From a virus: a stretch of DNA of 23,474 nt. The notes below the pieces were generated by a model. The model searched no databases. It saw only the letters and a program-made list of their open reading frames with translations, and had not been told where the DNA came from. The DNA lies in the IMG/VR virus record IMGVR_UViG_3300017763_000198, positions 1 through 23,474 of that record. The stretch is one strand, 5' to 3'. Both the position numbers and the translations under genes were made by a program. This document shows positions 1,893-23,474 of this stretch, piece after piece. The stretch's first letter is position 1; every line of letters begins with the position of its first letter.

Positions 1893-4298
1893 ATGCAAAT
1901 AAATACTAACAACGGTAGTTCTTTTCCTGATCAGGTAGTACCTGATGAAGTCAAAGAAAGCTTAGATTACGGCAGGCAAGTTGGTAGAGCAATTGAGGGA
2001 GATTGGTTTAGCGGTACTAGAACTGGAGTGTCCGGTAGATTTAATACTAATTTTAATAATTTTAGAAATCTAAGATTATATGCAAGAGCAGAACAGTCTG
2101 TACAAAAATACAAAGATGAATTAGCTATAAACGGAGATTTATCTTACTTAAATTTAGATTGGCAACCAGTACCTATAATACCAAAATTTGTAGATATAGT
2201 AGTTAATGGCATGGATGGAAAGCTTTATGACATAAAAGCTTATGCACAAGATCCAGAGTCTATAAAGAAAAGAACTGAATATGCTGAAACAATATTAAGA
2301 GACATAGAGGCAAAAAAACTAATAGATCAAATAAAAAATGTCACAGGCATGAATATGTATTCTACGTCTAACCCTGAAGATCTACCTCAAAACAGAGAAG
2401 AACTAGATGTTCATATGCAATTGACATATAAGCAATCTATAGAAATAGCTGAAGAAGAAGCCATAAATAATACTTTAACTTTTAATAAGTTTGAACTTAC
2501 TAGAAGAAGGATGGCTGAAGATTTAGTCGTATTAGGCATAGGGGCTGTTAAAACTTCTTTTAATTTATCAGAAGGGGTTACTGTAAAATATGTTGATCCA
2601 GCGGATTTAGTGTATTCATATACAGACGATCCTAATTTTCAAGATATATGGTACGTTGGTGAAGTTAAATATATAAGTCTAAATGAACTTAAAAAAGAAT
2701 TTCCTCACTTAACAGATGAGGAAATGGAGCGTATACAGCAATACCCTGGCAATTCTAGTTACAATTATCAATTTAATGGTAGAAAAGATAACAATAGCGT
2801 AGCAGTACTTTATTTTGAATATAAGACTTACCAAAATCAAGTATTTAAAATAAAAGAAACAAATACAGGTTTAGAAAAAGTTTTAGAAAAACCTGATACT
2901 TTTAATCCTCCTAAGAACGATAAATTCGATAGAGTATCTAGGTCAATAGAAGTTTTGTATCAAGGGGCAAAAGTTTTAGGTCATGACATGATGTTAAGTT
3001 GGAAGTTGGCGAAAAATATGGTAAGGCCAGATTCTAATTTAGTTAAAGTTAATATGAATTATAACATATGTGCTCCTAAAATGTATAAAGGTCGTGTAGA
3101 GTCATTAGTTGGAAGAATGACAGGTTTTGCTGATATGATACAATTGACTCATCTAAAATTACAGCAAGTGTTATCTAGAACGGTCCCAGACGGCGTTTTC
3201 TTAGATGTGGATGGATTAGCTGAAGTAGACTTAGGCAATGGCACTAATTACAACCCAGCTGAAGCGCTTAACATGTATTTCCAAACTGGTAGTATATTAG
3301 GTAGATCTATGACTCAAGATGGTGGAGCTAACCCTGGTAAAGTACCTATACAAGAGCTACAATCAGGCTCAGGTGGAGCTAAAATACAATCTCTTATACA
3401 AACTTATCAGTACTACTTGCAGATGATGAGAGATGCTACTGGATTAAACGAAGCTAGAGACGGAAGTCAACCAAACAAAGATTCTTTAGTAGGCTTACAA
3501 AAGCTTGCAGCTGCCAACTCGAACACTGCTACTAAACATATAGTTCAAGCTAGTTTATATTTATCAGCTAGGACGTGTGAAAATATTTCTTTAAGAATAT
3601 CTGATATGTTAGAATACCCTTTAACAAAAGAGGCCTTAAAATCTAGTATAAGTTCTTATAATGTAGGAACACTAGAAGATATGTATAGTTTAAACATGTT
3701 TGAGTTTGGTATATACTTAGAATTAGTTCCAGATGAAGAAGAAAAAGCACAGTTAGAACAAAACATACAAGTAGCATTACAGCAGCAGTCTATAAACCTA
3801 GAAGATGCTATAGAAATAAGAGATATTAAAAACTTAAAGTTAGCTAATCAATATATAAAGATTAAAAGAAAACAAAAAGCTGCTGAAGATCAACAAAAAA
3901 ACCAAGCAAATATACAAGCGCAAGCACAAGCAAATGCTGAGTCTAGTGAGAGGGCTGCTTTAGCTGAAATGCAAAAACAACAAGCTCTAGCTGAAACAAC
4001 ATTACAAATAGCTAAAGGTAAGTCTGAATTTGAAATAAATAAAATGCAGCAAGACGCTGAATTGAAAAAACAAATGATGGAAATGCAATTTATGTTTGAC
4101 AAGCAATTAAAGCAGATGGAATTGGATAGATTAGGAAATAAAGAAACTATGATAGAAGATAGAAAAGACGCTAGAACTAGAATTGAAGGAACACAGCAAA
4201 GCGAAATGATAAATCAAAGAAACTTAAATTTACCACCTATAGATTTTAAACAAGGTGGTGGAATGCAAGACTCTATGCCAGATGGAATTTTAGAGTAA
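1893..4298 (+). CDS. Portal protein
   Basis: The portal forms the dodecameric ring at one capsid vertex, through which terminase pumps DNA and to which the tail attaches. The 801-residue length, the position directly after terminase (zero-base spacing) and before scaffold and capsid genes, and the mixed alpha/beta core support this. The central part includes a VKYVDPADLVYSY stretch typical of portal wing regions and a later G/A-rich conserved segment (around residues 470-560, including RDATGLNEARDGSQP). From about residue 658 to 770 the sequence becomes a long Q/A/K/E-rich helix with heptad character, predicted to be a coiled coil extending from the crown or barrel into the capsid. It ends in a short Pro/Gly-rich tail. 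The start is fixed by the TAA-ATG junction. Portal is by far the best fit by size and order; no single catalytic motif exists to prove it. Confidence 0.88.
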   Translation: MQINTNNGSSFPDQVVPDEVKESLDYGRQVGRAIEGDWFSGTRTGVSGRFNTNFNNFRNLRLYARAEQSVQKYKDELAINGDLSYLNLDWQPVPIIPKFVDIVVNGMDGKLYDIKAYAQDPESIKKRTEYAETILRDIEAKKLIDQIKNVTGMNMYSTSNPEDLPQNREELDVHMQLTYKQSIEIAEEEAINNTLTFNKFELTRRRMAEDLVVLGIGAVKTSFNLSEGVTVKYVDPADLVYSYTDDPNFQDIWYVGEVKYISLNELKKEFPHLTDEEMERIQQYPGNSSYNYQFNGRKDNNSVAVLYFEYKTYQNQVFKIKETNTGLEKVLEKPDTFNPPKNDKFDRVSRSIEVLYQGAKVLGHDMMLSWKLAKNMVRPDSNLVKVNMNYNICAPKMYKGRVESLVGRMTGFADMIQLTHLKLQQVLSRTVPDGVFLDVDGLAEVDLGNGTNYNPAEALNMYFQTGSILGRSMTQDGGANPGKVPIQELQSGSGGAKIQSLIQTYQYYLQMMRDATGLNEARDGSQPNKDSLVGLQKLAAANSNTATKHIVQASLYLSARTCENISLRISDMLEYPLTKEALKSSISSYNVGTLEDMYSLNMFEFGIYLELVPDEEEKAQLEQNIQVALQQQSINLEDAIEIRDIKNLKLANQYIKIKRKQKAAEDQQKNQANIQAQAQANAESSERAALAEMQKQQALAETTLQIAKGKSEFEINKMQQDAELKKQMMEMQFMFDKQLKQMELDRLGNKETMIEDRKDARTRIEGTQQSEMINQRNLNLPPIDFKQGGGMQDSMPDGILE

Positions 4299-5419: not shown

Positions 5420-6916
5420 ATGAGTTTTACACAAACTGGTAGTTTTCCAGCGTCAATAATTCCTTCACAAAAGAGAATGGCGTTAGAGTCTAACTATCTT
5501 AATTTCAACGATGATGTGACAGGTGATGGTACCGGTCTAAACTTCGCACAACAATATCTACCTGAGCTTTACGAAGCAGAAGTAGAAAGATACGGGAACA
5601 GGACTTTGTCTGGTTTCTTGAGAATGGTAGGAGCTGAAATGCCTATGACTTCTGATCAAGTAATTTGGTCTGAGCAAAATAGATTGCATGTAGCTTATAA
5701 AGGTTTAACAAATGCTGGTATTACTGGTGCTGGTCCTTTTAGTTGTTCACCTGATTTAAGTGGACAAACTCCTGCTGCTACAACTTCAGCAATTAGAATT
5801 GGTCAAACAGTTTTATTTTCTGATGAAGCTACAGGTTTAATAGTTCAAAAAGGTTTAGTATTAACTACACTTGAAGCTGGTGGAGTTGGAACTGGAGTAA
5901 CTGGTTTTACATTTGAACTATATGGAACAAATACACTAAATCCTGCTTTAGCTGGAACTCCTAATGTAAATATATTTGTTTACGGTGCTGAGTTTAAAAA
6001 AGGAACACCTGGTATGGACGGTTCTATTGAGCCATCTTTTACTCAGTATTCTAACAGACCTGTAATCATAAAGGATAAGTACGAAATCAATGGTTCTGAT
6101 ACTGCTCAAATTGGGTGGATTGAAGTTGCTACTGAAGATGGAACATCTGGATACTTATGGTATTTAAAATCTGAGTCTGAAACTAGATTACGTTTTGAAG
6201 ATTACCTTGAAATGCAAATGGTTGAAGGTGAAAATGCAAAAGAAGCTGATGGTACAGTGACTAGATTAAGTACTGCAGGTTTTTTAGGTTCTGAAGGTTT
6301 ATTTGCTGCTATCGAAGCAAGAGGTAATGTATACTCTGGTTTTGCTGGTGCTGCTGCTCCTGGTTCAGGTGCTATGGGTGATTTTGATGAAATTCTTAAG
6401 AACTTAGATAAGCAAGGTGCTATTGAAGAAAATATGTTATTTTTATCAAGATCAACATCTCTTGATTTTGATGATATGATTGCTGCTATGGCAGGCGGAG
6501 GTTATGCTTCTACTGCTTCTGCATCTTATGGTTTATTTGACAACGAACAAGAAATGGCATTAAATTTTGGATTTTCAGGATTCAGAAGAGGTTCTTATGA
6601 CTTCTACAAGACTGACTGGAAATACTTAAATGACGCTTCTACAAGAGGACTAGACAGTGAGATCGATGGTGTTTTAGTTCCTGCTGGAACTTCAACAGTA
6701 TATGATCAAATGTTAGGATCTAATATTAGACGTCCTTTCTTACATGTAAGGTATAGAGCGTCTGAAACTGAAGATCGAAGATTCAAAAACTGGATTACTG
6801 GTTCAGTTGGTGGAGCTTACACTTCTGATTTAGATGCAATGTCTGTACACTTCTTATCTGAAAGATGTTTAGTAACTCAAGCTGCTAATAACTTCGTGTT
6901 ATTTAAAGGAGCTTAA
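5420..6916 (+). CDS. Major capsid protein
   Basis: This is the main shell protein, probably HK97-fold. The 498-residue protein follows the scaffold with only 10 bases between them. It has an N-terminal arm (MSFTQTGSFPASIIP), then a helical P-domain-like section around LPELYEAEVERYG (48-59). A Gly/Ala/Thr-rich beta region follows at about residues 97-195, likely an insertion domain. A strongly conserved-looking block begins at NRPVIIKDKYEINGSD (212-227) and continues to YLWYLKSESETRLRFEDYLEM (245-265). The next block is EGLFAAIEARGNVY (292-305) and then DKQGAIEENMLFLSR (330-344). From memory, these blocks match capsid proteins of uncultured marine phages. Codon choice is cleaner than in the neighbours (many GGT, GCT, ACT codons), as expected for the most abundant virion protein. 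The terminator at 7242-7269 follows one small gene later. Confidence 0.9.
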   Translation: MSFTQTGSFPASIIPSQKRMALESNYLNFNDDVTGDGTGLNFAQQYLPELYEAEVERYGNRTLSGFLRMVGAEMPMTSDQVIWSEQNRLHVAYKGLTNAGITGAGPFSCSPDLSGQTPAATTSAIRIGQTVLFSDEATGLIVQKGLVLTTLEAGGVGTGVTGFTFELYGTNTLNPALAGTPNVNIFVYGAEFKKGTPGMDGSIEPSFTQYSNRPVIIKDKYEINGSDTAQIGWIEVATEDGTSGYLWYLKSESETRLRFEDYLEMQMVEGENAKEADGTVTRLSTAGFLGSEGLFAAIEARGNVYSGFAGAAAPGSGAMGDFDEILKNLDKQGAIEENMLFLSRSTSLDFDDMIAAMAGGGYASTASASYGLFDNEQEMALNFGFSGFRRGSYDFYKTDWKYLNDASTRGLDSEIDGVLVPAGTSTVYDQMLGSNIRRPFLHVRYRASETEDRRFKNWITGSVGGAYTSDLDAMSVHFLSERCLVTQAANNFVLFKGA

Positions 6917-8086: not shown

Positions 8087-8123
8087 AAGTAATAACTAAA
8101 ATAAACAAGTGATATTATAAATA

Positions 8124-8228
8124 AGCACGGTGCTGTAATTTACTGAAGCAGTATGGTAAATAAAAATACATACGTTTCATATGTTATAACCTCAAGGATT
8201 AACGTATAGGGTTATGCACATTTACCAT
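8124..8228 (+). ncRNA. Candidate structured RNA or cis-regulatory element
   Basis: Several exact inverted repeats nest or cross here. They are AGCA/TGCT (8124-8127, 8131-8134); TACTG/CAGTA with an AAG loop (8141-8145, 8149-8153); ATGGTAAAT/ATTTACCAT (8153-8161, 8220-8228), nine pairs closing a 58-base interior; ATACGTT/AACGTAT (8170-8176, 8201-8207), seven pairs; and ATAACC/GGTTAT (8186-8191, 8210-8215), six pairs. The last two cross, giving a possible pseudoknot. The strand is assigned from its neighbours. In AT-rich DNA some pairing is expected by chance, so confidence is modest. The right-hand arms overlap the ATG at 8214, which might control the short ORF there. Confidence 0.35.
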
Positions 8229-8333
8229 GAAGCTACGGTAGAAGTATTTTACATCGCTGTGTGGACAAAAGGTGCTCCTCTTTTGGAAGATGTTTTAGAA
8301 AAAGTAAGGATTATTGATATTGACGAGGATTGA
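8214..8333 (+). CDS. Possible 39-residue small protein
   Basis: A short ORF from ATG 8214 to TGA 8331-8333 encodes an acidic peptide (MHIYHEATVEVFYIAVWTKG, then PLLEDVLEKVRIIDIDED). Its composition looks like a real small domain: amphipathic strands followed by a helix. The frame stays open upstream to 8190. Against it: its TGA stop differs from the TAA of all 13 completed genes here, and it lacks the A/T-only leader seen elsewhere (GGATTAACGTATAGGGTT precedes the ATG). It could be a small gene, the remnant of one, or incidental to an RNA element. No function can be proposed. Confidence 0.33.
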   Translation: MHIYHEATVEVFYIAVWTKGAPLLEDVLEKVRIIDIDED

Positions 8334-8387
8334 ATTTTTTGATTTTTTTTGATTTTGATTTGAGCTATAAGTATTTACTACATTGAC

Positions 8388-8409
8388 CACTAGCGGAGTG
8401 CCTTTTTTT
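8388..8409 (+). terminator. Weak hairpin with T-run upstream of the tail genes
   Basis: CACT (8388-8391) can pair with AGTG (8397-8400) around an AGCGG loop. Two C residues follow, then seven T residues (8403-8409). The four-pair stem is weak and sits only 15 bases before the next ATG, so this may be an attenuator or simply a chance structure. Confidence 0.28.
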
Positions 8410-8424
8410 AAATAATAAATTAAA

Positions 8425-10338: not shown

Positions 10339-13300
10339 ATGGCTAACGCAAGAAATACTTTTATAAAATCCAAGATGAATAAAGATCTTGACGATAGATT
10401 ACTTTCCAAAGGTGAATATAGAGATGCAGAAAATGTTCAAGTAAGTAGATCTGAAGGAGAAGATGTTGGCGCTTTAGAAAATGTATTGGGTAATAAGTTT
10501 TTGACTAATTGGTCTTTATCAGCAGAATATAATATCGAGGTTATAGGTTATGTTAAAGATGATGCTAATGATAGAGCTTTTTTTATAGCAACAAATTATA
10601 CAGATACTTCTAATGATAGATTAAGTAATTCAGCACCTTATGGAGCGCTTTGCTACATTCTACTTTTTAACAACAAAGGTCTTACTAACGCTGATAAATA
10701 TAAAACATTAGTTCAAGGTAGATTTTTAAACTTTTCTAAAACACATCACATTCATGGTATTGATCTAATAGAAGATCTTTTATTTTGGACAGATGATCGT
10801 AATCAACCTAGAAAAATAAACGTAACTAAAGCTATAGCAGATAACACTTATTATACAAATGAAGATCAAATATCTGTTGCTAAATATTTTCCATATAAAG
10901 CTCCGTTATTATTTGATGAAGTTACTTTAACAGCTACTTTTCAATCAGATAATATATCAGTCAATTATAGTAACTGGGGTGTAGCAGCTTCTGAATATGG
11001 TAATTTAAACAAGCTATATGCTGGCATGCAAGTTTCAGGTTCTCCTTTAACTTTTATTAGAACAGTAACAAAAACTGGATCTAGTAGAGGTTTTACTTTG
11101 TCTCAAGTATCAGCTGGTCCTCTTTTTCCTTCAACAGGACAGTTGACATTCATTGGTCCTTCTTCTAAGATGGTAACAGAAGAATTTTTACCACCTAGCA
11201 TATTTGGAGTAACAACAGGAAGTCCAAAAGGAGCAACAACTACAACTTTAGAAACTCTATCAGTTAGCGAAAACAAGATATTTGAAAATATGCAGGTTAC
11301 TTTTATTACTGGTGAAAAAAGAATCATTGATACAGTAACTCCAGACGCAACTGCAGATGAGGTTACTATAACATGGACGGGAATTTTAAATAGTAATCTT
11401 TGGACCGCACTTGAACCTACCGATCCAGATGAAAGTACAGTTAGAATAAGTTGGCCTAATCCCAACTATGTTAGTACTTGGCCTGGTGATGAAGATTTTT
11501 TAAAAGATAAGTTTTATAGATTTGCATACAGATTTCAGTTTGACGATGGAGAGTATTCTTTAATATCTCCATTTACTCAACCAGCTTTTATACCTATTAA
11601 TAATGGTTATATACCTTCTAATATACCTAACGGTCAAGGCCAATCAGGTGGTTCTACAAATCCAGATTTAAAAGTAAATCCAGATTCGTTATCTCCTTTA
11701 GCTGTCAGCACTATAATGGCTAAGTTTGAAAATTCAGTACAGCAAGTGAATATTAGGTTACAATTACCTGATGAAGAAAGATACATAAATAGCAATTACA
11801 AAATAACACAAATTCAAGTACTATCTAAAGAATCAGATGGATTAGCTATAAATGTCATAGAAGAAATAAATCTAGCTGACTTTTCAACTACTTCTACAGA
11901 TAAGTTTTATGATTATAGTTATCAGTCTAGAAAACCTTTTAGAGTTCTTCCTGAGAGAGAGACTTTGAGAGTGTTTGACAAGGTTCCAATTAGAGCAAAA
12001 TCTCAATCAGTTGTAGGTAATAGAGTTGTATACGGTAATTTTATAGATAAACACTCGCCTCCAGCAAATTTAGACTATTTCGTAAATGTAAGTGAAAAAC
12101 TTGAATCTGCTTCTTCAGCTGACACTTTTATTCCAACTAGAAGTGGTAACGTTTTTGTAGGAGCACCAAGTGGATATACTACAAACTCTTACTCTTCTTA
12201 TCCTACCCACACTGTTAAACAAAATAGAACTTACCAAGTGGGTATTGTTTTATCTGATAGATATGGTAGACAATCTGATGTAATACTATCTTCAATAACT
12301 TCTTTTGCAGAATCAAATGATAGTGGCGAAACTGTATTTGATGGTTCTACATTTTATAACCCATTTGGTTTAAAACAACCATCAACAGTAAACCAAGCTA
12401 ACGAAGTTCTTCCAGGTACTTGGAGAGGTGAAAGTTTAAAAGCTTTATTTTCTTCAACAATACCAGCGACAAGCACAAACGAAGGTTATCCTGGTTTATA
12501 TAAGAGCGGAGAGTATACCGGTGTAGTTGCTACTAATAGCACACAAAAAATAATTTTCTTATCTTCGTTAGATTCAAACGTAGCTGTAGGTGATATAGTA
12601 ACCGGTACAGATAGTGGTGGTGTTTTTGTTGATAGCATAACAGCGGTAAATACAAGTGGTACTGCAATAACGGTAAACAACAATCACACACTTAGTGTTA
12701 ATGATGTTATAACCATATCTGGACCTGAAAATAAACTAGGCTGGTATACTTATAAATTTGTAGTAAAACAACAACAGCAAGAATATTATAATGCTTTTTT
12801 AGGAAACATTTGTAAGTTAGATACCTCTGCTGAAATAAGAAATGGAACTCTAGCAGGTACTTTTTCTACTGTTTATATGACTAGCTTAATAAGTGACAAC
12901 GTTAATAAAATACCTGCTGATTTAGGCGTGGTTTCTCCAGAACAAAATCAATTTGGAACTAGTGATACACAATTAAACTTAAGAGTGGGTTCTAATGGTG
13001 GAAGATCTGATTCATCAGGCAACGCTGTATATGATCCTCAGCAATCAAAAAGTGGTAACTCTTTAATCTCTATAAACGGTTATGGAAAAGTTTTAGATTT
13101 AGGTTTAGCACCTTCACAAACTATTCCTACAACAGATGGTTTATTTCAAAGCAGCTCTAATCCTCCATGCATATTAATACAAGATGGAAGTGATGCAGAG
13201 ATAGGTAATCCTCTAAACTCTATTGCAGAAACTTTTTCTGTAGTAGAGATAGTACCTCCAACATCTAGACTTGAGATTTATTGGGAATCGTCTACATCTG

Positions 13301-13386
13301 GTTTAGTTTCAGAATTAAATCAATGGATTGAAGATGGGTCAACTAGCGGGCCAGTTGTTCCAGAAGAAGTACCTGTAGTAGAATAA
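10339..13386 (+). CDS. Large tail nozzle/muzzle-like protein, N-terminal part
   Basis: This 1015-residue, almost wholly beta protein follows the adaptor with a four-base gap, the place of the T7 gp12/P22 gp10-type nozzle that forms the tail tip. The N-terminal motif KGEYRDAENVQVSRSEGEDV (24-43) and the later ALENVLGN are typical of this family. HIHGIDLIEDLLFWTDDRNQ (137-156) followed by PRKINV looks like a beta-propeller blade. Repeated Thr/Ser/Gly-rich strands fill the middle. LEIYWESSTSGLVSELN (978-994) near the end reads as a final beta domain, followed by an acidic Pro/Glu/Val tail. In related phages I recall this continuing straight into the sequence encoded by the next gene, so the two genes may be halves of one protein. 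It ends TAA, 14 bases before the next ATG and in a different frame. Confidence 0.78.
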   Translation: MANARNTFIKSKMNKDLDDRLLSKGEYRDAENVQVSRSEGEDVGALENVLGNKFLTNWSLSAEYNIEVIGYVKDDANDRAFFIATNYTDTSNDRLSNSAPYGALCYILLFNNKGLTNADKYKTLVQGRFLNFSKTHHIHGIDLIEDLLFWTDDRNQPRKINVTKAIADNTYYTNEDQISVAKYFPYKAPLLFDEVTLTATFQSDNISVNYSNWGVAASEYGNLNKLYAGMQVSGSPLTFIRTVTKTGSSRGFTLSQVSAGPLFPSTGQLTFIGPSSKMVTEEFLPPSIFGVTTGSPKGATTTTLETLSVSENKIFENMQVTFITGEKRIIDTVTPDATADEVTITWTGILNSNLWTALEPTDPDESTVRISWPNPNYVSTWPGDEDFLKDKFYRFAYRFQFDDGEYSLISPFTQPAFIPINNGYIPSNIPNGQGQSGGSTNPDLKVNPDSLSPLAVSTIMAKFENSVQQVNIRLQLPDEERYINSNYKITQIQVLSKESDGLAINVIEEINLADFSTTSTDKFYDYSYQSRKPFRVLPERETLRVFDKVPIRAKSQSVVGNRVVYGNFIDKHSPPANLDYFVNVSEKLESASSADTFIPTRSGNVFVGAPSGYTTNSYSSYPTHTVKQNRTYQVGIVLSDRYGRQSDVILSSITSFAESNDSGETVFDGSTFYNPFGLKQPSTVNQANEVLPGTWRGESLKALFSSTIPATSTNEGYPGLYKSGEYTGVVATNSTQKIIFLSSLDSNVAVGDIVTGTDSGGVFVDSITAVNTSGTAITVNNNHTLSVNDVITISGPENKLGWYTYKFVVKQQQQEYYNAFLGNICKLDTSAEIRNGTLAGTFSTVYMTSLISDNVNKIPADLGVVSPEQNQFGTSDTQLNLRVGSNGGRSDSSGNAVYDPQQSKSGNSLISINGYGKVLDLGLAPSQTIPTTDGLFQSSSNPPCILIQDGSDAEIGNPLNSIAETFSVVEIVPPTSRLEIYWESSTSGLVSELNQWIEDGSTSGPVVPEEVPVVE

Positions 13387-13400
13387 TAAAAATAAAAATT

Positions 13401-15140
13401 ATGTCAGCAATAGTAGAAATAGATTTTTTTAATAGTTATGTAGTTCGTAGAGCTGCCGCTGTTGAATCAACAGCTCAAAAATGGTTTTCATGGGCACCTT
13501 ATTTTATGTGGAAATCAAGTTTTGACATAAGTTTAGATAGTCAAGTTTCTTCTTATGTTAATTGGTATTTTGAAGAGTCTAGAATTAGAGCTGGTTTTAA
13601 TAACGTATCTACAGATCAAGGTGTAAGGGCTTATTTGGATGAAGAATACCCATTACAACAAAGAAGAATTAGTACTTTAATTTACTCTGGCGTTTATAAC
13701 TCTAGAACAGGTATAAATCAAACTAATGTATTTTCTGTTGGCGATGCTATAACAAAGTCCTTAGATCCAGTCTATGGATCAATACAGAAGACTTATGCAG
13801 AAGAAACAAACTTAATTGTATTTCAAGAAAACAGAATACATAGGGCATTAATAGATAAAGATACTATATATACAACTGAAAGTGGTACACAAACACAAGC
13901 AGGTCAAAATGTGATAGGTCAGTTTGTACAATACAAAGGAGAGTATGGAATAAGTAAAAATCCAGAATCTTTTGCAATATATAACTATAGGAAGTATTTT
14001 GCTGATAAAAACCGTAATGCTATAATGAGGTTGTCTAATGATGGACTTACTGAAATAAGCATGTATGGTATGAGAGATTACTTTAGAGATGAATTAGCAG
14101 AAATACCTAGTAATTACTATTCTGTTTCAGTTAATGGAGCTACTAGTGCTGGTTTTACTATTTCGGCTGGAGGAAATGCCGGAGAGACATATGTAGATAT
14201 TCAAAAAACAAGTATACAGGATTATACTATGATCTCAGCTGGTATGCAGTTTGTTGATAACGGTGTTACTGTAGACGGTTATATTACTTCTATAATAAGC
14301 ATAAGTAACGTTGATTGGAGAGTTTTTTATTCAAAACCTTTTGCTGGACTTTCAAGTGGTGGAGTATTGACTGCTTCTTACGAGGTAATAGGACAAATTA
14401 AAGGAGGTTGGGATACACACGCTAAAAATTATTTAGTTTCTCTACAGAAAAGCCCAAACCAAGCAACTACTGACGATGCTAGTTTTAAAACTTTAACTTT
14501 TGACGAAGAGATAAATGGGTGGGTTAGTTTTCTTACCTTCAAGCCTAATCAAATGTTTAGCTTAATTAACAAGTTTTACACTGTAGGTAAATCAGATAGT
14601 ACTACAATTTCACCAGCAAATAGTAGCGCTGAACTATATGTTCATTATGCAGAACCTAATTTAAATAATAGAGGTGTTTTTTACGGCATTAGAAAACCAT
14701 CTAATGTTACCTTTGTATTCAACCCAGAGCCTGATGTAGTAAAAAACTTTAACACTATATCTTACGAAGGAAGTAATGGCTGGGAAGTAAATTCTTATAT
14801 ATCTGGTTTTACAGGTCAAGATCTTAATACAGATGGAACTTCTTACAGTCAAAATAATGATAAGATATTATCAATAAAAAGTTATGATGAAGGTTTGTAT
14901 ACTGACTTGAACACTGGACAACCTTTTAGAGCTGGGTTTGACAGGAAAGAAAATAGATACGTTGCTAATCTAGTTAACAACTCGACTCCTACAGCTGATG
15001 AAATTATATTTGGTAATAAGATGAGTGGAATTAAAGGATATTTCGCTACAGTAAAAATTCAAACAGACGATACAACTCAATTAGGTGGACCAAAAGAATT
15101 ATGGTCTGCTGCCACTGGTTTTGTAATATCGTCATATTAA
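13401..15140 (+). CDS. Tail nozzle/muzzle-like protein, C-terminal part
   Basis: The 579-residue product is beta-rich and probably part of the short tail. The key block is residues 150-230: IDKDTIYTTE (151-160), GQFVQYKGEYGISKNPESFA (173-192) and KYFADKNRNAIMRLSNDGLT (198-217), followed by EISMYGMRDYFRD. I recall this as the C-terminal half of very large tail proteins in marine and crAss-like phages. Upstream, ESRIRAGFNN and QRRISTLIYSGVYN also fit. The start has a good leader (AATAAAAATAAAAATT), so it is likely translated as its own protein. It is in a different frame from the 1015-residue gene before it, so simple stop-codon read-through cannot fuse them. Interaction with the preceding product is inferred from family and adjacency. 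Confidence 0.77.
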   Translation: MSAIVEIDFFNSYVVRRAAAVESTAQKWFSWAPYFMWKSSFDISLDSQVSSYVNWYFEESRIRAGFNNVSTDQGVRAYLDEEYPLQQRRISTLIYSGVYNSRTGINQTNVFSVGDAITKSLDPVYGSIQKTYAEETNLIVFQENRIHRALIDKDTIYTTESGTQTQAGQNVIGQFVQYKGEYGISKNPESFAIYNYRKYFADKNRNAIMRLSNDGLTEISMYGMRDYFRDELAEIPSNYYSVSVNGATSAGFTISAGGNAGETYVDIQKTSIQDYTMISAGMQFVDNGVTVDGYITSIISISNVDWRVFYSKPFAGLSSGGVLTASYEVIGQIKGGWDTHAKNYLVSLQKSPNQATTDDASFKTLTFDEEINGWVSFLTFKPNQMFSLINKFYTVGKSDSTTISPANSSAELYVHYAEPNLNNRGVFYGIRKPSNVTFVFNPEPDVVKNFNTISYEGSNGWEVNSYISGFTGQDLNTDGTSYSQNNDKILSIKSYDEGLYTDLNTGQPFRAGFDRKENRYVANLVNNSTPTADEIIFGNKMSGIKGYFATVKIQTDDTTQLGGPKELWSAATGFVISSY

Positions 15141-15151
15141 ATTAAATTAAA
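15137..15151 (+). repeat. Three TTAAA units spanning a stop and start
   Basis: Three tandem TTAAA pentamers run from the stop codon of the tail gene to the first base of the ATG at 15151. This is another short tandem repeat serving as an A/T-only leader. Confidence 0.65.
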
Positions 15152-15558
15152 TGGAATTTATAGCAAGAAAAATTGAAGAAAAAGATTATGATTTACTAGT
15201 TCGCTGGTGGAAAGAATGGGGCTGGGATGCAGTGCCTAAAGACATGTTGCCAAGCAATGGTGATGATGGTATAATGTTAGAAAAAGATGGTAAACCTATA
15301 ATAGCAGGTTTTATATATTTTGGTTATGACAATATAGCTTGGTTAGATTACATAGTAGCAGATAAAAAAGCTGAAAGAATAACTAGGGCTAAATCTTTAA
15401 TAAGATTACTAGAAGTTGTTGAAGAAGTAGTAAAAAAAGCTGATAAAAAATATATTATAACAGTTACCGATAATAAAAGTTTAATATCTACATTTGATAA
15501 AAACAACTGGTACGTAGATAAAGATCCTTTACATAAGGTAGTTAAAATAATAAGATAA
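15151..15558 (+). CDS. GNAT-family N-acetyltransferase-like protein
   Basis: This 135-residue protein resembles small phage GNAT acetyltransferases, which use acetyl-CoA to acetylate an amine. Supporting features in order: RKIEEKDYDLLVRWWKEWGW (6-25); the loop DMLPSNGDDGIMLE (31-44); the central strand pair GKPIIAGFIYF (47-57) and IAWLDYIVAD (62-71); and the basic KKAERITRAKSLIRLL segment (72-87), where GNATs hold the acetyl-CoA pyrophosphate. A strict Q/RxxGxG/A motif is not evident, so activity is uncertain. It lies between tail and ejection genes with 10-base gaps on each side and is clearly part of the late operon. The substrate is unknown; a host protein, a virion protein or a cell-wall amine are all possible. 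Confidence 0.72.
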   Translation: MEFIARKIEEKDYDLLVRWWKEWGWDAVPKDMLPSNGDDGIMLEKDGKPIIAGFIYFGYDNIAWLDYIVADKKAERITRAKSLIRLLEVVEEVVKKADKKYIITVTDNKSLISTFDKNNWYVDKDPLHKVVKIIR

Positions 15559-15568
15559 ATTAATAAAT

Positions 15569-16135
15569 ATGGGATGTCAAGATAATAATGATGCACTCGA
15601 CCAACAAGAAGAAGACAGAAGAATTGCGATTCAAGCACAAAGAGAAAAAGGTGTTAAATTAATAAAAGCTAAACAAAAGGCTTTAGATAATTTAGTAAAA
15701 AATAGGCAACCAGCTATAAACCCATATGCTGGTATGACTAATCAAATGGCTAATTTAGGCGTTGCTACACAAGCATCGGAGTTTCAAGCAGAACAAACTG
15801 ATATAGCATTAGCAAACACCTTAGACACTATGGCTGCTAGTGGTGCAGGCGCTGGCGGCGCTACAGCTTTAGCTCAAGCAGCACTACAAAGTAAAAGAGG
15901 AATATCAGCTTCGTTAGAACAACAAGAGAAAGCTAATCAAGATAAGGCAGCAGCTGGAGCGCAGCAACTGCAAGCTAAACTGGCTGAAGGAGAAAAATAT
16001 AAATTTGAAACTACAGAGAATAGAGAGCAACAAGATATAGACAGAGCCGCTACTCAACTAGACAACACAGAGCAACAGGTTCAGGAGAATTTAAACGCGT
16101 TACAGACATCATATATAAACGAAGAACAAGCTTAA
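15569..16135 (+). CDS. Small internal virion (ejection) protein
   Basis: This 188-residue protein is nearly all helix and rich in Ala and Gln. An N-terminal charged helix (DQQEEDRRIAIQAQREKGVK, residues 11-30) leads to NPYAGMTNQMANLGVATQAS (51-70), then EFQAEQTDIALANTLDTMAA. An Ala/Gly-rich middle follows (SGAGAGGATALAQAALQSKR, 91-110), and a long Gln/Glu coiled-coil C-terminus. The composition and its position first in the ejection block resemble T7 gp14-type internal core proteins, which enter the cell envelope during infection. I recall close look-alikes in marine phages. The protein begins MGC but has no hydrophobic stretch before the Cys, so it is not a lipoprotein. Function is from context and composition. 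Confidence 0.72.
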   Translation: MGCQDNNDALDQQEEDRRIAIQAQREKGVKLIKAKQKALDNLVKNRQPAINPYAGMTNQMANLGVATQASEFQAEQTDIALANTLDTMAASGAGAGGATALAQAALQSKRGISASLEQQEKANQDKAAAGAQQLQAKLAEGEKYKFETTENREQQDIDRAATQLDNTEQQVQENLNALQTSYINEEQA

Positions 16136-16145
16136 TATAAAAAAA

Positions 16146-18614
16146 ATGAGTTATAGTAAACCTAAACAGATAAGCACCGGAGCACTAGAGTTAAACAGAA
16201 CTCTACTTAAGGAAACATTAAAAGATGGTGATCAACAAGAAGCCAATAGACAGGCTAGAAACACACAAAATATTAGTGCGCTAGTAAACACAGGCCTATC
16301 TTTAGCTACGCAATCTATAGCTCCTAAAGCCGATGCTTTAAGTGAGTTAAACAAAGATTATAGTAAACAAACTCAAAGATTATATAACAAAGTTGGCTCT
16401 TCTGACTATGATACAGGTTTTGAAGGAACCGACAAAAAGGCGGATGTTTTTATGAATGGTTTAATAGATGACTATTATAGAATAAAAAATAGCATTAAAG
16501 ATATGAAAGACCCTAGTCTAGGTCAACAAGATCTAGCTACAATAGAAAACATGGTTAATCAATATGGTGAGGGTGTTGTTAATATACGTGCTTTTAATTC
16601 AGAGATACAAGCAGCTAGTAAGGCTGATATAAATAGTGGAAAAAAATTAAGCAATACGGGAGCTCCAGCAGCTCAATTGCAAATAATAAGAAAAATATCT
16701 GCAGGAGGTCCAGAAGCTGAAGATATTGAATTTAGAAGAGAAGGTAGCAATATACTTCTATATGATAAGACAAGTAAACAAACTTTAAATATAACCGAAT
16801 TTAATAGGGCTCAAAAAGCAGGAGAGCAGTATTTAAAATTTGCAATACCAACTGAAGAGACTACAAGTGGTTTTTTTAAACAAAAAATTGAAAACAAAAG
16901 TGAAGGTGGAACTTTTTTAGAAAAATATACTACTAAGACTGATGAAGGTGGTTATAAAATGACTACGCAACAGCAAGAAAATTATAAAAACGATATAATG
17001 GGTAAAGAACCTGGCTCTGAATACGCGACTGGAGGAATGTTTGAAGGTTTGTTGACTGGAGATGGCAACGTAGCTGAGAGTATTTGGGAAGATCAAATGT
17101 TTGAATCAGGAGCAACTAAAGATCTAGGCCAATGGCCTACAGGTGAGGAAGATGGCAGTGTTTATTCTGGTAAAACTTCAGACGAAATAATAGCTGCAGC
17201 AAAAAGACCTAATGCAACTCAAGAGGAAAAAGAACTTTACAAGCTTTTTTATAAAGATTATTACGAGCCTGCATTAAATTTTTTAGCTGATCAATCTTTA
17301 CAAGGTGCTAACGAATTACAAATTACACTAGACGAAGAACAAGAAGAAAATACACAAGGTCAAAAACAAGAAGAAGAAATAGTTAATAATGAACAAACAG
17401 GTGCTGGTGGTATTGAAGTAAATGATAATAAAACAGGTAATACTGAAGTAATTAAAGAAGAAACTGTAGTTGTTGAAGAAGATAAAAAAGGTGTTAATAA
17501 AGCTTTAAAAACAGACGTTGGTGACGGCAATGATTATATTAGAAAAATGTTTAATTATGAAAACACATCTGGTAATAGTTCAGGTGGTGGTGTAGGTAAT
17601 TACGGTTTTACTGGATCGGGAGATAAAGGAGCTGCATTGAAAAAGCTATATGATAAAGCCGAAGGTAGTTCTGAAGAAAAAGGTATTAAAGTAGTTAATG
17701 AATACATAATAGGAACTTCCCCTGATCAAAAAGCAGGTGATTATGGTACTACAATATTAGCAGACTTAGGTATGGACAGAAAAACTTATGATGAGTTACC
17801 TGAAAATATTAAAGAACAATTAGTAGACTGGAAATTTAATACGGGTAGAGGATCTACTGATTTAATAGCTATAGCTAGTGGCATAGAAATAGATGGTGAG
17901 AAGTGGGATGGCACCAAAGCTTTTGAAAATAACTCACCAACGACAGATCAAATCAAAGATGTAGATTATTCTAAATTAACACCTACGGCATTGTATGATG
18001 CTAGACAAGAGTTATATAAGAAAAGAATAGAAGGCATGGAGAAGATGCTTAAAGAAGATCCGGATAATGAAAAATTAAAAAAAGGTTTAAAATATGCTAA
18101 AGATGGTTATAATAACTCTCAAATAAATAGATTAAAAGTAAAAGAAAGCAACGGTGACACATCAGAGGGCGTTAGCTTAAACCAAGAAGCTGATGAGATT
18201 TTTAATGATGATAAGAAAGATGAAAAAGAAAAAGCTTCATCTTATACAACATTAATGAAACCAGAAGAAATAAAAGTAGTTGATAGTTTTAGCGTTGTAA
18301 ATACTGGAGAAAACAAAGCTAATATACTTAGAGATGGCAAACCTATAACTAGTAACAAGAATGGGGTAACTGTAACTGGATTAAGAGCTGAGGGTAATAA
18401 TGTTGTTGTGGATGCTAATATACTTGGTTTAAAAGGCACTGGAGATTTAGGTAGTTTTAAAATCGAAGGCAATAAAGTTATTTTTAATGAAGGTAGTGAT
18501 TACAACAAGTTAGAAGGAAAAGATAAAGTTGATTTTGATACATTTAAAAGAGCTATGGAACTAGATATTAACTATGCTTTAGAAATACAAAAACAAATTA
18601 AAGGTGAAGCTTAA
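16146..18614 (+). CDS. Internal virion protein with muramidase-like region
   Basis: This 822-residue protein lies between the small helical ejection protein and the giant ORF. The first ~270 residues are helical and polar (PKADALSELNKDYSKQTQRL). Residues ~395-455 are an acidic, Gln/Glu/Val-rich linker. From about 460 to 650 the sequence resembles a lysozyme or muramidase: MFNYENTSGNSSGGGVGNYG (468-487), with Glu472 as candidate acid; YDELPENIKEQLVDWKFNTG, with Asp561; a downstream LIAIASG; and LYDARQELYKKRIEG followed by GYNNSQINR, reminiscent of the closing helices of GH108/GH24-type enzymes. The C-terminus is a small beta-rich domain (NGVTVTGLRAEGNNVVVDAN) and a helix. A peptidoglycan-cutting ejection protein would fit, as in T7 gp16, but the enzymatic call is by motif resemblance only. 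Confidence 0.75.
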   Translation: MSYSKPKQISTGALELNRTLLKETLKDGDQQEANRQARNTQNISALVNTGLSLATQSIAPKADALSELNKDYSKQTQRLYNKVGSSDYDTGFEGTDKKADVFMNGLIDDYYRIKNSIKDMKDPSLGQQDLATIENMVNQYGEGVVNIRAFNSEIQAASKADINSGKKLSNTGAPAAQLQIIRKISAGGPEAEDIEFRREGSNILLYDKTSKQTLNITEFNRAQKAGEQYLKFAIPTEETTSGFFKQKIENKSEGGTFLEKYTTKTDEGGYKMTTQQQENYKNDIMGKEPGSEYATGGMFEGLLTGDGNVAESIWEDQMFESGATKDLGQWPTGEEDGSVYSGKTSDEIIAAAKRPNATQEEKELYKLFYKDYYEPALNFLADQSLQGANELQITLDEEQEENTQGQKQEEEIVNNEQTGAGGIEVNDNKTGNTEVIKEETVVVEEDKKGVNKALKTDVGDGNDYIRKMFNYENTSGNSSGGGVGNYGFTGSGDKGAALKKLYDKAEGSSEEKGIKVVNEYIIGTSPDQKAGDYGTTILADLGMDRKTYDELPENIKEQLVDWKFNTGRGSTDLIAIASGIEIDGEKWDGTKAFENNSPTTDQIKDVDYSKLTPTALYDARQELYKKRIEGMEKMLKEDPDNEKLKKGLKYAKDGYNNSQINRLKVKESNGDTSEGVSLNQEADEIFNDDKKDEKEKASSYTTLMKPEEIKVVDSFSVVNTGENKANILRDGKPITSNKNGVTVTGLRAEGNNVVVDANILGLKGTGDLGSFKIEGNKVIFNEGSDYNKLEGKDKVDFDTFKRAMELDINYALEIQKQIKGEA

Positions 18615-18618
18615 AATT

Positions 18619-18623
18619 ATATT
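18619..18623 (+). promoter_or_regulatory. Single ATATT leader before the giant ORF
   Basis: The nine bases between the preceding stop and the ATG at 18624 are AATTATATT. There is no Shine-Dalgarno sequence, but one ATATT unit touches the ATG, matching the multi-copy versions before 4321 and 7292. This supports the chosen start. Confidence 0.55.
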
Positions 18624-21600
18624 ATGACTAGAAGAGAGTATTTACAATCCTTAAAAGATCAAGGTAAAACTAAAGAAGAAGCTATTGAATTAACAAAGCA
18701 ATGGGAGATTGACAATAAACCAACAACAGAGGTGGAAAAGCCTCAGGCCACTGCAACGGATGCTGCACCTGTAGTGGCAAGTCCTACAGGCAGTACGGAA
18801 TCCAAGCCGGAAGATACTTCTTTGGTTTTACCAAAAGAAGACACTGAACAGCTAAAACAAAAACCTGAAATTTCTGATCCACCTAAAAAATATGTTGCAT
18901 CTAAAAATCAAGTGGGCATACCAAAAGGTGAAGAAATAGATATTTTAGAAGAAATAGATATTGATAGTAAGAAGTTTAAAGAAGCTAAAGTATCTTTTGA
19001 TATAGACAAAGACACCCAGCAGCAAGTAAAACCTTTTGACTATACAGCTTTTGAAGAGCAAAAGAAAAGAGACTTTGAAAGAGGAGCAAGAAAAATATCA
19101 GAAAGAGATGCTTATGATCACTATAAAAATACAGGTGGTGATATTGATATATCGTTATTTAAAGAAAAAGATTTAAAAGGCAAAGGTGAATTGGATGTTT
19201 CTAAAAATCTTGTAAAATTAAAAAAGCTTGATAAAACATCAAAAGATTTTGTTGACGAAGATGTATTTAAAATAGAAGATGAAGTTATAAAAGGAAGTGT
19301 TCTTAGAGATCAAGGTAATTTTTACATACCAGTATATCAAACAGGCACAGATGCAAATGGTAATCCTATTCTTTTTGAAGGAAAACCAGTAGCTATCAAA
19401 GATGAAGAACTAAATGCTTATATATATAAAGATGCTGGGGTAATTACTCAAAAAGACAACATACTGCCTGGTGTTGAAGTTACTGCTAGTCAAGCTCAAG
19501 ATTTATCTTTATTAGATATAGATGAAGAAGGTCATTTAAGCAAATTAAAAGATTTAAATAGTAAAATAAAAGATGCAACAGACAAAAAAGAAATAGAAAA
19601 GCTCCAGCAAGAAAAAGAGACAGAGATAAGAAGGTATGACAATCTAGTTAATCAAAACGCTTTAAGAGCTTCTAATAGAAACTATTTAAACAGAAACACA
19701 GAAAATATAGGAGAGGAAAAAGAAATCCCTAATATTCAAAACGTACTACCAAACTCTGGAACTAAATATTACAAGTTTGATAACGATAGTGGTGAGTTTG
19801 AGATAAAAGGTAGAGAAAATGATTTTCATCAAGTTTGGAATCCTTTTAGTGATAAAATGGTCTATGATGGAGCTAGGTTTTTATCTAGCGAAAACCCTAG
19901 AGATATAGCAACTAAATTAAATAATAATTATTTAAACCACGGTTTAGGAACTATAGTAGATGGTAAAGAAGTTATAACTTATAAAAACCCTGTATTTAAG
20001 GAAAATGGAGATATAGATTATAACGCAACTCTAGAGGCAAACGGTTTAGAGCCTTTAAAAGATTATTTAAAAAGTGGATCGCAACAAAGAAACGCTTTCA
20101 ATGTAGCAATGCAGAAAGAAGGATTATCTTCAAGTTTAACACTAGGTAAAAAAGATATAAATATATTTCAAAGTAAAGAAACTCCTGAAGACATAGCTAA
20201 TTATATGAAGTTTGTTAAAGACAATGCTGCTGAATATACATATGATGGAAAAGGAGCATTACCAAGGTATTACGAAGGGAGTGATAAAGCAATTAAACAG
20301 CAAAATAGAGAGATAGATGATAAAGAAAAAGGCTTAGTAAATAAAATACAAGATGAGCAAAAAAAAGGAGAAGAGATTATAGATAAATATAAAGAAAATA
20401 ACGCAAAAAGTGAAAGCCTTGCTAAGAACGTTACTAACAAGCTAGAAGCTACTAAAAGCGAGATAGAAGATATAAATAAAGCTTATGTAGATAATGTAAC
20501 ATCTAAAAGAGAAGAACTAAAAATAGCTGTTACTGAAAATCCAGATAATGCAGACGCTTTAGTAAAAAGGTATCAAAAGTGGGAGGACAAGCAGGAAGAA
20601 AAAAGATTAGATAATGTTAACGGTTTAATTGATGACTACACTGATCTTTATGAAAAAGAAAAAGAACAAATAGATGTTTTAATACAGAAAAATAAAGACT
20701 TAGAAGTTGAGACAGGTAGAATATCTTTTAATATAGAATCATATTTAAACAATTACGAAACACTAGAAGGCTTAAAAGCTGTATTAAGATATAAGAATAA
20801 CGACAGGGTTGCTAGAAAACAAAATCAAGAATTTTCTGGTAATCCATTTACAGAAATATACGATGTTTTTGCTACTCAATTTGTAGATACTCAAGCTGGT
20901 TTTAATGATATAATGCGTGATTTTGCTAGAGGAATAAACAACGTGGGCAATTCAATGGGCTTAATATCTGAAGGAGAATATAACGCTAATTTAGCTACTT
21001 TCAAATCACAAGAAGCCACCATGGAGTCAACTAAAAAAGCAATAGTTGATAAGCTAGTAGGTATAGGAAATGATGAAAAATATTCTCAAAAATTTGCAGA
21101 CAGCTTAGTAGGTGGAACTATAGTTGCATTTACTCAAATGGCAGCTTCTGCTATGGGTGCTCCACTAGGTGGGCTAGGTGCTGGTTTCTTTTTAAGCAGC
21201 ATGTCTCAAAGTAATGTTGCAAATCAAAACAGACAAAAAGAGTATGTAAAAGAATTAATGGAAAATGGCGTTAGCAGAAAAGATGCTATTAAAAGATACG
21301 AAGAGTCATACCCAAAGTCTAGGCAGATGTTATATGCTTACACTCAAGCAGCTGTAGAAGGTGCTTTGTCTCATTTGTCTGGTAAGATTTTAAGTGGTAA
21401 AATACCAGGTAAAACATCAAAAGATATGGTTAATAATATAACTAATCATGTGCTAAGAAAGTTAACTAACGGTAATGTAACTGCTAGAGAAGTTCAAATA
21501 GCTGTTAATAAGTACTTAGGTGATAGTGCTGCTAAAGTGATTAGAGGTGGTAAAAAATTTACAACTTCAGGTTTATTAGAAACAATAGAAGAAACTACTC

Positions 21601-23474
21601 AGTTTTATAGCGCTATACAAATAGACGAGTGGTTTCAAAACTCTACTGGTGATGATATAAATTTTGATATACCAGACTTTGACAGTCCTGAATTTAAAAA
21701 GCAATTAAACCATATGATGCAAGTGTCTTTTCTATCAGGCGCTGGTGGTACTGCTTTTACTATGGCTTCAAGCCCAAGCGAAGCTATACTAAGTGATTAC
21801 GAGAAAAATACTACATTTCAAGAAAGACAGCAAACAGATAAGTTATATGAGTTTTATGCTAATACGGCTAGAGATGCAGATGCTTTGCAAAATGAAATAA
21901 GTAAAATATCTTCTGATAACACACTTAGTGACGCTGATAAAAAACAAAAAATTCAAGATGCAAATGAAACTTATAATCTTTATAATGAAATAGACGACGG
22001 TTTGAATGGTAGAGCTCAGATGCAAATAGCAGCCCTGCTTCAACGTAAAAAAGCATTAGAAAATAAAAAGAAAAATTTAGCTAAAGGTTCTACTGGTAGA
22101 ATAGATAAACAGATAGAAGCTATAAATAACGAAATGGCTGATGTTTCTGGTGATAGTAACAATGCTAAAGTAGATAAAGATAAGACTGTATCATCACTAG
22201 AAGAAGCTCTTGTGATAAGCACAGAAGAAAAGGTGAATCTAGATAATAAAGATATAGAAAAAGTAATAAGAGATGAAAATCCAAATCTTACAGAGGAAGA
22301 AGTACAAGAGCAAGTAGAAGCTAATAAGATAGATTTTGATCCTAAGCAAACTGCAGTAAGAGTATTTTCACCAGCAGAAGCTCAGTCTATAGCAGATGAA
22401 TATGGTATAGACGTAGATCAATTAGTAGACGAAAACGGAGAGTTTAGAAACGAAGGTAGTTATATACCTTCAAAAGGAGTAATATTATTATCACAAAACG
22501 CAGCAGAAGGAGTTGATATTCACGAGGGAACTCACTTATTTACTGACATTGCTTTTTCAAAATTAGAAAATAAAAATATAGTTTATGCGCTTGCTGATAA
22601 AGTTATGAACGAAATGCGAAAGCAAAATCCAAAAGCAGCAGCAGCATTAGAAAGACAATTAGATAAATATAGAGAAGACGAAAACTATGATGGTAATGCG
22701 GTAATGCAAGAGGTTATGCCTTTCTATACTCAGTTAAGAGAAATGGGTCTTTTTGATACAAACAATTCTGTTTCTAGACAGCTAAAGAGAGGAATTAGAA
22801 GACTCTATCAAAATCTAGGTATGAAACTAGATATTAACGAAAACAATATATTAGAAGTATTAAATGATTATGCTGACAACTTAAAAGAAGGTAATGTAAC
22901 TAAAGCTCAAAAAAGAGCTGTAAAAGGAGAGGTTGATATTGATCAAGATCTAAGAACTAAAGGTGAAGTTTTAGCTCAAGAAGAATTCAAATCTCTTGCA
23001 GAAGATAATATAAAGGAACAACCTACTCTTTCTACATCTAAAACTACTAGAGTTGTACCAATAAAAGAACCTGCTAAACAACCTGTTAAAATGGTTGCTT
23101 CTAAGCCTATAAGTGTTGATACTAGATCTATGTCTAATTCTTTTGATCAAAACATTACAGAAGACTTAGTTACTAATGAAGATTTTAAAAATAGTGAAGC
23201 AGCTATAGACGCTTTTGAAAACATAGAAAATAACTCTCAATTTAATAACTATATAAATCAATTAATAAATAGAGATAATAATTTACAAGGATTAGACTCT
23301 GAGGTTAAACAAGAGGTTAATAGAAAGATAAAAGAAAACTTACAGCTTAGAGCTTTAAATAATTTTAAACCTATAGTAGATGGAAATAAAAGAAGTTTAT
23401 TTAGCTATTTGTATGGTAAAGCAGATCAAAGAGGTTTAGGTGGTATTGCTCAGAAAGCTTTATTAGATGTTAAA
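18624..23474 (+). CDS. Giant ejection/polyvalent protein with HEGTH metallopeptidase motif, 3'-truncated
   Basis: An uninterrupted frame of 1617 codons runs from ATG 18624 to the window end without a stop, so the C-terminus is missing. Residues 1-25 (MTRREYLQSLKDQGKTKEEA) are helical; residues ~35-75 are a Pro/Thr/Glu/Ala linker with unusually high GC; to ~520 a mixed, repeatedly charged region with no recognised fold. Residues ~550-710 form coiled coils (NKIQDEQKKGEEIIDKYKEN). At ~828-858 there is a hydrophobic Gly/Ala/Met segment (GGTIVAFTQMAASAMGAPLG). LLETIEETTQFYS (~980-995) recalls phage ejection proteins. HEGTH at residues 1300-1304 (22521-22535) is an HExxH zinc site, and Glu1363 (MQEVMPFY) could be the third ligand. 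The end, SLFSYLYGKADQRGLGGIAQ, resembles a motif of giant phage internal proteins, so it likely continues far. A gp16-like ejected enzyme is the best fit. Confidence 0.85.
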   Translation, partial: MTRREYLQSLKDQGKTKEEAIELTKQWEIDNKPTTEVEKPQATATDAAPVVASPTGSTESKPEDTSLVLPKEDTEQLKQKPEISDPPKKYVASKNQVGIPKGEEIDILEEIDIDSKKFKEAKVSFDIDKDTQQQVKPFDYTAFEEQKKRDFERGARKISERDAYDHYKNTGGDIDISLFKEKDLKGKGELDVSKNLVKLKKLDKTSKDFVDEDVFKIEDEVIKGSVLRDQGNFYIPVYQTGTDANGNPILFEGKPVAIKDEELNAYIYKDAGVITQKDNILPGVEVTASQAQDLSLLDIDEEGHLSKLKDLNSKIKDATDKKEIEKLQQEKETEIRRYDNLVNQNALRASNRNYLNRNTENIGEEKEIPNIQNVLPNSGTKYYKFDNDSGEFEIKGRENDFHQVWNPFSDKMVYDGARFLSSENPRDIATKLNNNYLNHGLGTIVDGKEVITYKNPVFKENGDIDYNATLEANGLEPLKDYLKSGSQQRNAFNVAMQKEGLSSSLTLGKKDINIFQSKETPEDIANYMKFVKDNAAEYTYDGKGALPRYYEGSDKAIKQQNREIDDKEKGLVNKIQDEQKKGEEIIDKYKENNAKSESLAKNVTNKLEATKSEIEDINKAYVDNVTSKREELKIAVTENPDNADALVKRYQKWEDKQEEKRLDNVNGLIDDYTDLYEKEKEQIDVLIQKNKDLEVETGRISFNIESYLNNYETLEGLKAVLRYKNNDRVARKQNQEFSGNPFTEIYDVFATQFVDTQAGFNDIMRDFARGINNVGNSMGLISEGEYNANLATFKSQEATMESTKKAIVDKLVGIGNDEKYSQKFADSLVGGTIVAFTQMAASAMGAPLGGLGAGFFLSSMSQSNVANQNRQKEYVKELMENGVSRKDAIKRYEESYPKSRQMLYAYTQAAVEGALSHLSGKILSGKIPGKTSKDMVNNITNHVLRKLTNGNVTAREVQIAVNKYLGDSAAKVIRGGKKFTTSGLLETIEETTQFYSAIQIDEWFQNSTGDDINFDIPDFDSPEFKKQLNHMMQVSFLSGAGGTAFTMASSPSEAILSDYEKNTTFQERQQTDKLYEFYANTARDADALQNEISKISSDNTLSDADKKQKIQDANETYNLYNEIDDGLNGRAQMQIAALLQRKKALENKKKNLAKGSTGRIDKQIEAINNEMADVSGDSNNAKVDKDKTVSSLEEALVISTEEKVNLDNKDIEKVIRDENPNLTEEEVQEQVEANKIDFDPKQTAVRVFSPAEAQSIADEYGIDVDQLVDENGEFRNEGSYIPSKGVILLSQNAAEGVDIHEGTHLFTDIAFSKLENKNIVYALADKVMNEMRKQNPKAAAALERQLDKYREDENYDGNAVMQEVMPFYTQLREMGLFDTNNSVSRQLKRGIRRLYQNLGMKLDINENNILEVLNDYADNLKEGNVTKAQKRAVKGEVDIDQDLRTKGEVLAQEEFKSLAEDNIKEQPTLSTSKTTRVVPIKEPAKQPVKMVASKPISVDTRSMSNSFDQNITEDLVTNEDFKNSEAAIDAFENIENNSQFNNYINQLINRDNNLQGLDSEVKQEVNRKIKENLQLRALNNFKPIVDGNKRSLFSYLYGKADQRGLGGIAQKALLDVK
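18721..18810 (+). other. GC-rich linker segment within the giant ORF
   Basis: By hand count 51 of 90 bases are G or C (about 57%), while the surrounding gene is roughly one-third GC. The segment encodes the Pro/Ala/Thr/Glu linker containing EVEKPQATATDAAPVVASP and uses codons rare in this window (GCC, ACG, CCG, TCC, GTG). It stays in frame. Confidence 0.75.
22521..22535 (+). other. HEGTH zinc-binding motif
   Basis: Codons for His-Glu-Gly-Thr-His lie within VDIHEGTHLFTDI, preceded by a beta-strand (VILLSQNA) as in gluzincin-type peptidases. This is the clearest catalytic signature in the giant ORF. Residues 1300 and 1304 would bind zinc and Glu1301 would be the catalytic base. Confidence 0.75.

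Follow-up and report, generated by a model that had tools for sequence, protein, structure and literature searches.

Proteins that podoviruses eject into their hosts can carry cell-wall enzymes, the enzyme of T7 gp16 being a transglycosylase. Zinc-peptidase domains recur in particle-carried phage proteins. In phage N4, gp52, gp51 and gp50 act as ejection proteins and gp50, the virion RNA polymerase (vRNAP), is itself ejected (PMC12633501). The core of the polyvalent metallopeptidase (MPTase) domains comprises an HExxH helix and a following helix with the glutamate that serves as third zinc ligand (Iyer et al. 2017, PMC5512222). Self-processing of the giant protein has been put forward for this domain type, with P1 DdrB, which is processed before packaging, as a precedent; N4 vRNAP is packaged unprocessed (PMC5512222). 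The cargo proteins of phi-crAss001 are kept in capsid and tail and are thought to be ejected, and ejection from N to C terminus was proposed for its cargo protein gp45 (PMC10172136).

The locus analysed here, a stretch of viral DNA of 23,474 nucleotides (IMG/VR record IMGVR_UViG_3300017763_000198) that we call the window, holds a late gene block which runs from terminase through portal, capsid and muzzle genes to a giant open reading frame (ORF) as its last gene:

3..1892, + strand: terminase large subunit (TerL), 5' end cut (PHROG 6681, E 3e-148)
1893..4298, + strand: portal protein (PHROG 6547, E 7e-141)
5420..6916, + strand: virion structural protein (PHROG 13704), probable major capsid protein (MCP) by gene order
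10339..13386, + strand: muzzle-like tail protein, N-terminal part (Pfam crAss_MUZ)
13401..15140, + strand: muzzle-like tail protein, C-terminal part (Pfam crAss_MUZ_C)
15151..15558, + strand: conserved 135-aa ORF (PHROG 17252)
15569..16135, + strand: conserved 188-aa ORF, candidate small ejection protein in the N4 gp52 slot (homologues in most related contigs)
16146..18614, + strand: variable 822-aa ORF, candidate medium ejection protein in the N4 gp51 slot (by position only)
18624..23474, + strand: giant ejection-type ORF, first 1,617 codons, cut by the window edge

TerL and portal match those of Elemovirus, of Cellulophaga and Tenacibaculum podoviruses and of the Manatee Spring podovirus MW202828, and the phage itself is probably a podovirus with Elemovirus and the Cellulophaga Pervagoviridae as relatives. 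A large protein closes the late block in elemoA (3,694 aa), MW202828 (3,859 aa), phi38:1 (1,691 aa) and phi19:3 (1,871 aa), and in phi46:3 the block closes with one of 1,439 aa and then one of 626 aa; the exception among the genomes examined is Gundel_1, with no such giant downstream in the stretch read. In elemoA, phi38:1, phi46:3 and phi19:3 the annotation in this slot reads structural or virion structural protein; the MW202828 protein is labelled 'reticulocyte binding/rhoptry protein', which is probably wrong. The last three genes of the window (188 aa, 822 aa, giant) follow the order of N4, in which portal and capsid protein are succeeded by gp52 (small), gp51 (medium) and gp50 (giant). 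The location of the giant in an ejection block, claimed in a first, sequence-only reading of this DNA, is supported by synteny with virion and ejection proteins.

Many homologues of the 188-aa protein have Gly/Ala-rich hydrophobic N-termini. The 822-aa ORF, whose counterpart in the related contig G001 (L002) measures 628 aa, matched no PHROG or Pfam family. Of nine related contigs in genome bins, seven come from Bacteroidota, bin assignment of phage contigs being uncertain, and the host is therefore probably a member of this phylum. The muzzle-like protein is encoded by two adjacent ORFs in the window lineage and by one long ORF, to which both halves match, in phi38:1, elemoA and phi19:3. At 8087-8424 the window has a gap of 338 bases, where G001 has two more ORFs (239 and 195 aa) that lie between the 264-aa and 250-aa genes or overlap the latter; gene loss in the window lineage is possible, and an Rfam search of the window, including this gap, returned nothing.

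The giant reading frame is real and no sequencing artefact. It is open without a stop for 1,617 codons from 18624 to the window edge, as the sequence-only reading had described it. The same giant, with 96% amino-acid identity, is open through the same region in the independent contig L002, where it reaches a length of 1,911 aa. L114, the next closest relative, aligns over residues 307-1617, with 34% identity over residues 323-1617 by BLASTP. Between window and L002, dN/dS is 0.14 over the whole ORF and 0.088 over residues 1240-1430; the ORF is thus under purifying selection, and a stop codon hidden by a sequence error, which the same reading had named as a possible flaw, is not plausible. Because the complete ORF of the relative L114 (L294) has 3,331 aa, after which a convergent ORF follows, we estimate the full giant at about 3,300 residues, of which the window would hold about half. 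The N-terminus evolves fastest, with a dN/dS of 0.36 in residues 1-350 and 0.00-0.12 elsewhere.

Window and G001 (L006) share 70-88% nucleotide identity from TerL to the 822-aa gene and 96.0% over the whole giant (18615-23474), and the identity changes inside the first ~100 bases of the giant ORF. This pattern suggests that phages exchanged the giant gene as one module, at a time that is recent relative to the divergence of the rest of the block. A chimeric assembly as the cause of the identity jump is argued against, since the identity is 96% and not 100%.

Within the visible half, the following features were located:

21105..21194, + strand: hydrophobic Gly/Ala segment, residues 828-857 (Kyte-Doolittle peak 1.34 over 19 residues), a candidate membrane segment
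22341..22886, + strand: zincin-like metallopeptidase domain, residues 1240-1421 (conservation; AlphaFold2 mean pLDDT 85.1), with a well-predicted core at about 1240-1375
22521..22535, + strand: HEGTH motif, residues 1300-1304 (motif in 65/70 dereplicated syntenic giants)
22710..22712, + strand: Glu1363, predicted third zinc ligand (E in 62/63 aligned domains)

The sequence-only reading had pointed to the hydrophobic segment and had placed HEGTH and Glu1363 exactly where they stand in the translation. To follow them across the lineage, we gathered related phages through the conserved 188-aa and muzzle-C proteins and then extracted their syntenic giants, because the giants themselves diverge beyond the reach of BLAST: owing to this fast divergence, tblastn of the whole giant found no match in 50,697 phage records, nor in 30 contigs found via the portal protein. 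HExxH occurs once each in 47 of 52 syntenic giants of a first set (0.12 expected by composition) and exactly once in 65 of 70 giants of the joint set, dereplicated at 60% identity (0.36 expected); in shuffles of the window giant the expectation is 0.00. In an alignment of 63 domains, for which HExxH was the selection criterion and Glu1363 was not, the Glu1363 column holds E in all rows except one, which is misaligned or has no Glu. A glycine 22 residues ahead of HExxH is kept in 54 of these domains, and the column seven residues after Glu1363 has E or D in 55, with Q in the window. These residues are retained in domains that mostly share 10-22% identity with that of the window (L114: 41%). A chance occurrence of HExxH in a long, helical structural protein might be suspected from so short a motif with no database family match; it is contradicted by the 65/70 count and by the independent Glu1363 column, and we consider it extremely improbable.

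In most of the giants that lack HExxH, the first His is exchanged for Glu or Gln at the equivalent position, and the third Glu is still there. Five natural variants without the first zinc-ligand His are L123, L170, L171 and L215 (EE[IL]FH) and L140 (QEVGH); they are possibly inactive or bind an altered metal. Such losses in a few lineages show that the domain is dispensable or open to a new use, and since the Cellulophaga giants have no HExxH either, activity is not universally required. That five giants keep the domain without this His, and that encapsidation in N4 depends on the region containing the MPTase (PMC5512222), would also fit a zinc fold with a purely structural role, e.g. one needed for packaging of the giant, and no peptidase activity. 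This is improbable, however, as most giants by far retain the general-base Glu together with all three ligands. The giant of MW202828 (L004:741-12320) has two HEFGH motifs, at 1615 and 2500.

An AlphaFold2 model of the window sequence, computed with the 63-domain alignment, has the order b-a-b-b-a(HExxH)-a-a-a(Glu): the elements b(5-9), a(11-21), b(39-42) and b(47-51) precede helix 58-71, which contains HEGTH, and Glu1363 is located at the helix break 118-123/125-134. The motif thus lies within a helix, with Glu1363 at a later one, and the order of elements ahead of the motif fits the three-stranded sheet with N-terminal helix of the polyvalent MPTases. Foldseek gave no significant match of the domain model in the PDB or a viral set; zincins recur among the top 20 PDB entries (anthrax lethal factor, collagenase G, PPEP-3, IrrE/PprI; E 0.2-3.4), and the viral list holds polyvalent and crAss-like structural proteins at probabilities of 0.6-0.9 but E above 0.03. 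An earlier prediction of 301 residues had yielded no useful fold match, and the trimmed core performed better, still below significance. A profile search against PDB sequences returned nothing meaningful.

The domain is unmatched by any Pfam, PHROG or NCBIfam model, and a search for PF18818 (MPTase-PolyVal) was negative in all 42 records at E <= 1. PF18818 alone does not, to our knowledge, cover all 12 clades of polyvalent MPTase. With hhalign, the window domain matches a profile of the N4 vRNAP C1 domain (12 sequences, in which HExxH and Glu are themselves invariant) with a score of 43.5 and E 1.3e-5, HExxH lying on HExxH, over only 60 columns up to HExxH and not into the Glu helix. Since 60 motif-keeping column shuffles reach at most 27.9, the likeness to N4 C1 exceeds that of the motif itself. 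By its working and probable ancestry, the domain would be a zincin-like MPTase of the polyvalent/N4 kind outside PF18818, and it appears to form a new subfamily, absent from the standard family libraries. Taken together, HExxH and Glu conservation, the model and the N4 profile make the proposal of the sequence-only reading, a zinc metallopeptidase with Glu1363 as third ligand, well-supported: the giant probably carries a zincin-type domain with an intact active site, in which the two His and Glu1363 would hold the zinc and Glu1301 would activate water.

In an alignment of 17 giants, the invariant columns are those of both His, the two Glu and a single Gly, together with some of a C-terminal block; column identity runs at 0.1-0.4 through the N-terminal part and at 0.5-0.7 beyond about residue 2350 of L114. 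The latter region includes a HAD phosphatase domain (DFDDT), matched by PHROG 415 under the name polynucleotide kinase, at residues about 2366-2550 of the L114/L294 giant; as a query this region found no match among PDB sequences. Of 48 giants longer than 2,300 aa, at least 32 have the HAD domain. Several of the others end at a locus edge beyond which it may follow, and we predict it in the window's own giant beyond the window edge. P-loop kinase families (AAA_33, zeta toxin) were matched in two of the 17 giants; together with HAD, such a kinase would resemble a polynucleotide kinase-phosphatase. The family thus seems to consist of polyvalent proteins, with a variable, hydrophobic N-terminal part, MPTase, a variable middle, HAD and a conserved C-terminus. 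A polyvalent giant, the parallel drawn in the sequence-only reading, is found in the relative L114 (complete form L294), where MPTase and HAD lie in one polypeptide; the half covered by the window contributes the MPTase only. What surprises is an apparently near-universal domain with a conserved active site in a lineage whose giants otherwise keep almost nothing of their first half in common.

As the best overall explanation, to which we assign a probability of roughly 0.7, the giant is a packaged and ejected member of a three-protein cassette and bears an active zincin-like peptidase. The giant (~3,300 aa) and the 188-aa and 822-aa proteins would form an ejection cassette in the order of N4 gp52-gp51-gp50, and we infer that the giant is stored in the virion, enters the cell after the smaller ejection proteins, binds zinc and is active. 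If ejection runs from N to C terminus, the catalytically intact peptidase in mid-giant would reach the cytoplasm behind the membrane-active segment, and its position after this hydrophobic segment therefore favours a cytoplasmic role over one at the wall. A T7 gp16-like enzyme that opens the cell wall or envelope for DNA passage would be in keeping with the known capacity of ejected podovirus proteins, but phages of this group have wall peptidases encoded by genes of their own close to the block (M15 peptidase, D-Ala-D-Ala carboxypeptidase, L-Ala-D-Glu peptidase), and a Pfam search of the visible half and of complete relatives found neither a wall-binding domain nor a match to a wall enzyme. 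With the domain placed in mid-protein, we regard such a wall enzyme as unlikely.

For the action of the peptidase in the cytoplasm, we tentatively put self-cleavage first: the enzyme may cut the N-terminal membrane or channel part off the C-terminal enzymatic part, which includes HAD in relatives. Self-processing was not among the options raised in the sequence-only reading. Cleavage before ejection is weakened by the unprocessed packaging of N4 vRNAP. Nearly as likely, and likewise to be held with reserve, the injected peptidase could cut one or more host proteins early in infection, such as a defence sensor, a regulator or an envelope protease. A host target would be consistent with an active site kept constant amid drift elsewhere in the domain, with the steady C-terminal block, with the recent exchange of the whole gene, whose break lies at the gene start, and with the proposed role of polyvalent MPTases as effectors (PMC5512222). 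The drift, however, equally fits a co-evolving self-cleavage site, and PADLOC found no defence-related family match. A broader scenario, in which almost every genome of a large Bacteroidota podovirus lineage is accompanied into the host by a module-swapped giant that has a fast-diverging zinc peptidase as its sole near-universal enzyme, directed at a host protein to counter defence and paired with a HAD (polynucleotide-phosphatase-like) repair domain, is conceivable but doubtful.

The lineage keeps the peptidase domain in almost every member, and because the domain is missing from standard family libraries, many such genes are probably still labelled hypothetical. A culturable relative with the domain (Flavobacterium phage elemoA) and the natural ligand-loss variants make the cleavage question testable.

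Among known systems, the parallel with T7 gp16 that was first drawn is not supported: searches of the visible half and of complete relatives found no cell-wall enzyme domain, and Pfam found no lytic transglycosylase domain in the window giant or complete relatives. With the phi-crAss001 cargo proteins gp45/gp46, the giant shares a virion block with a muzzle protein, but homology to them is not shown, and PMC10172136 mentions neither zinc nor a peptidase. The Elemovirus and MW202828 giants occupy the same slot, have 3,694 and 3,859 aa and HExxH motifs in each, yet a pairwise comparison with the window giant gave nothing significant, and for its N-terminal half no homology to the Cellulophaga giants was found. 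Like the polyvalent MPTases, the window domain has, in the model, strands ahead of an HExxH helix and a Glu on a later helix, and it sits midway along a giant phage protein that in relatives bears further enzyme domains; it differs in being unmatched by PF18818, and no ArdC-N was found. Unlike N4 vRNAP, whose MPTase is C-terminal of the RNA polymerase (RNAP), the window family carries it N-terminal of HAD; no RNAP domain was matched in the window half or in complete relatives, where a remote one could be missed, and a scan of the giant for RNAP-type DxDGD/DFDxD motifs gave scattered acidic matches and no convincing catalytic motif. With gp50 of N4 (Schitoviridae), the window giant shares its place at the end of an ejection cassette in which a small and a medium gene precede the giant one, and an HExxH domain whose preceding strand region resembles that of C1, the part over which the two align.
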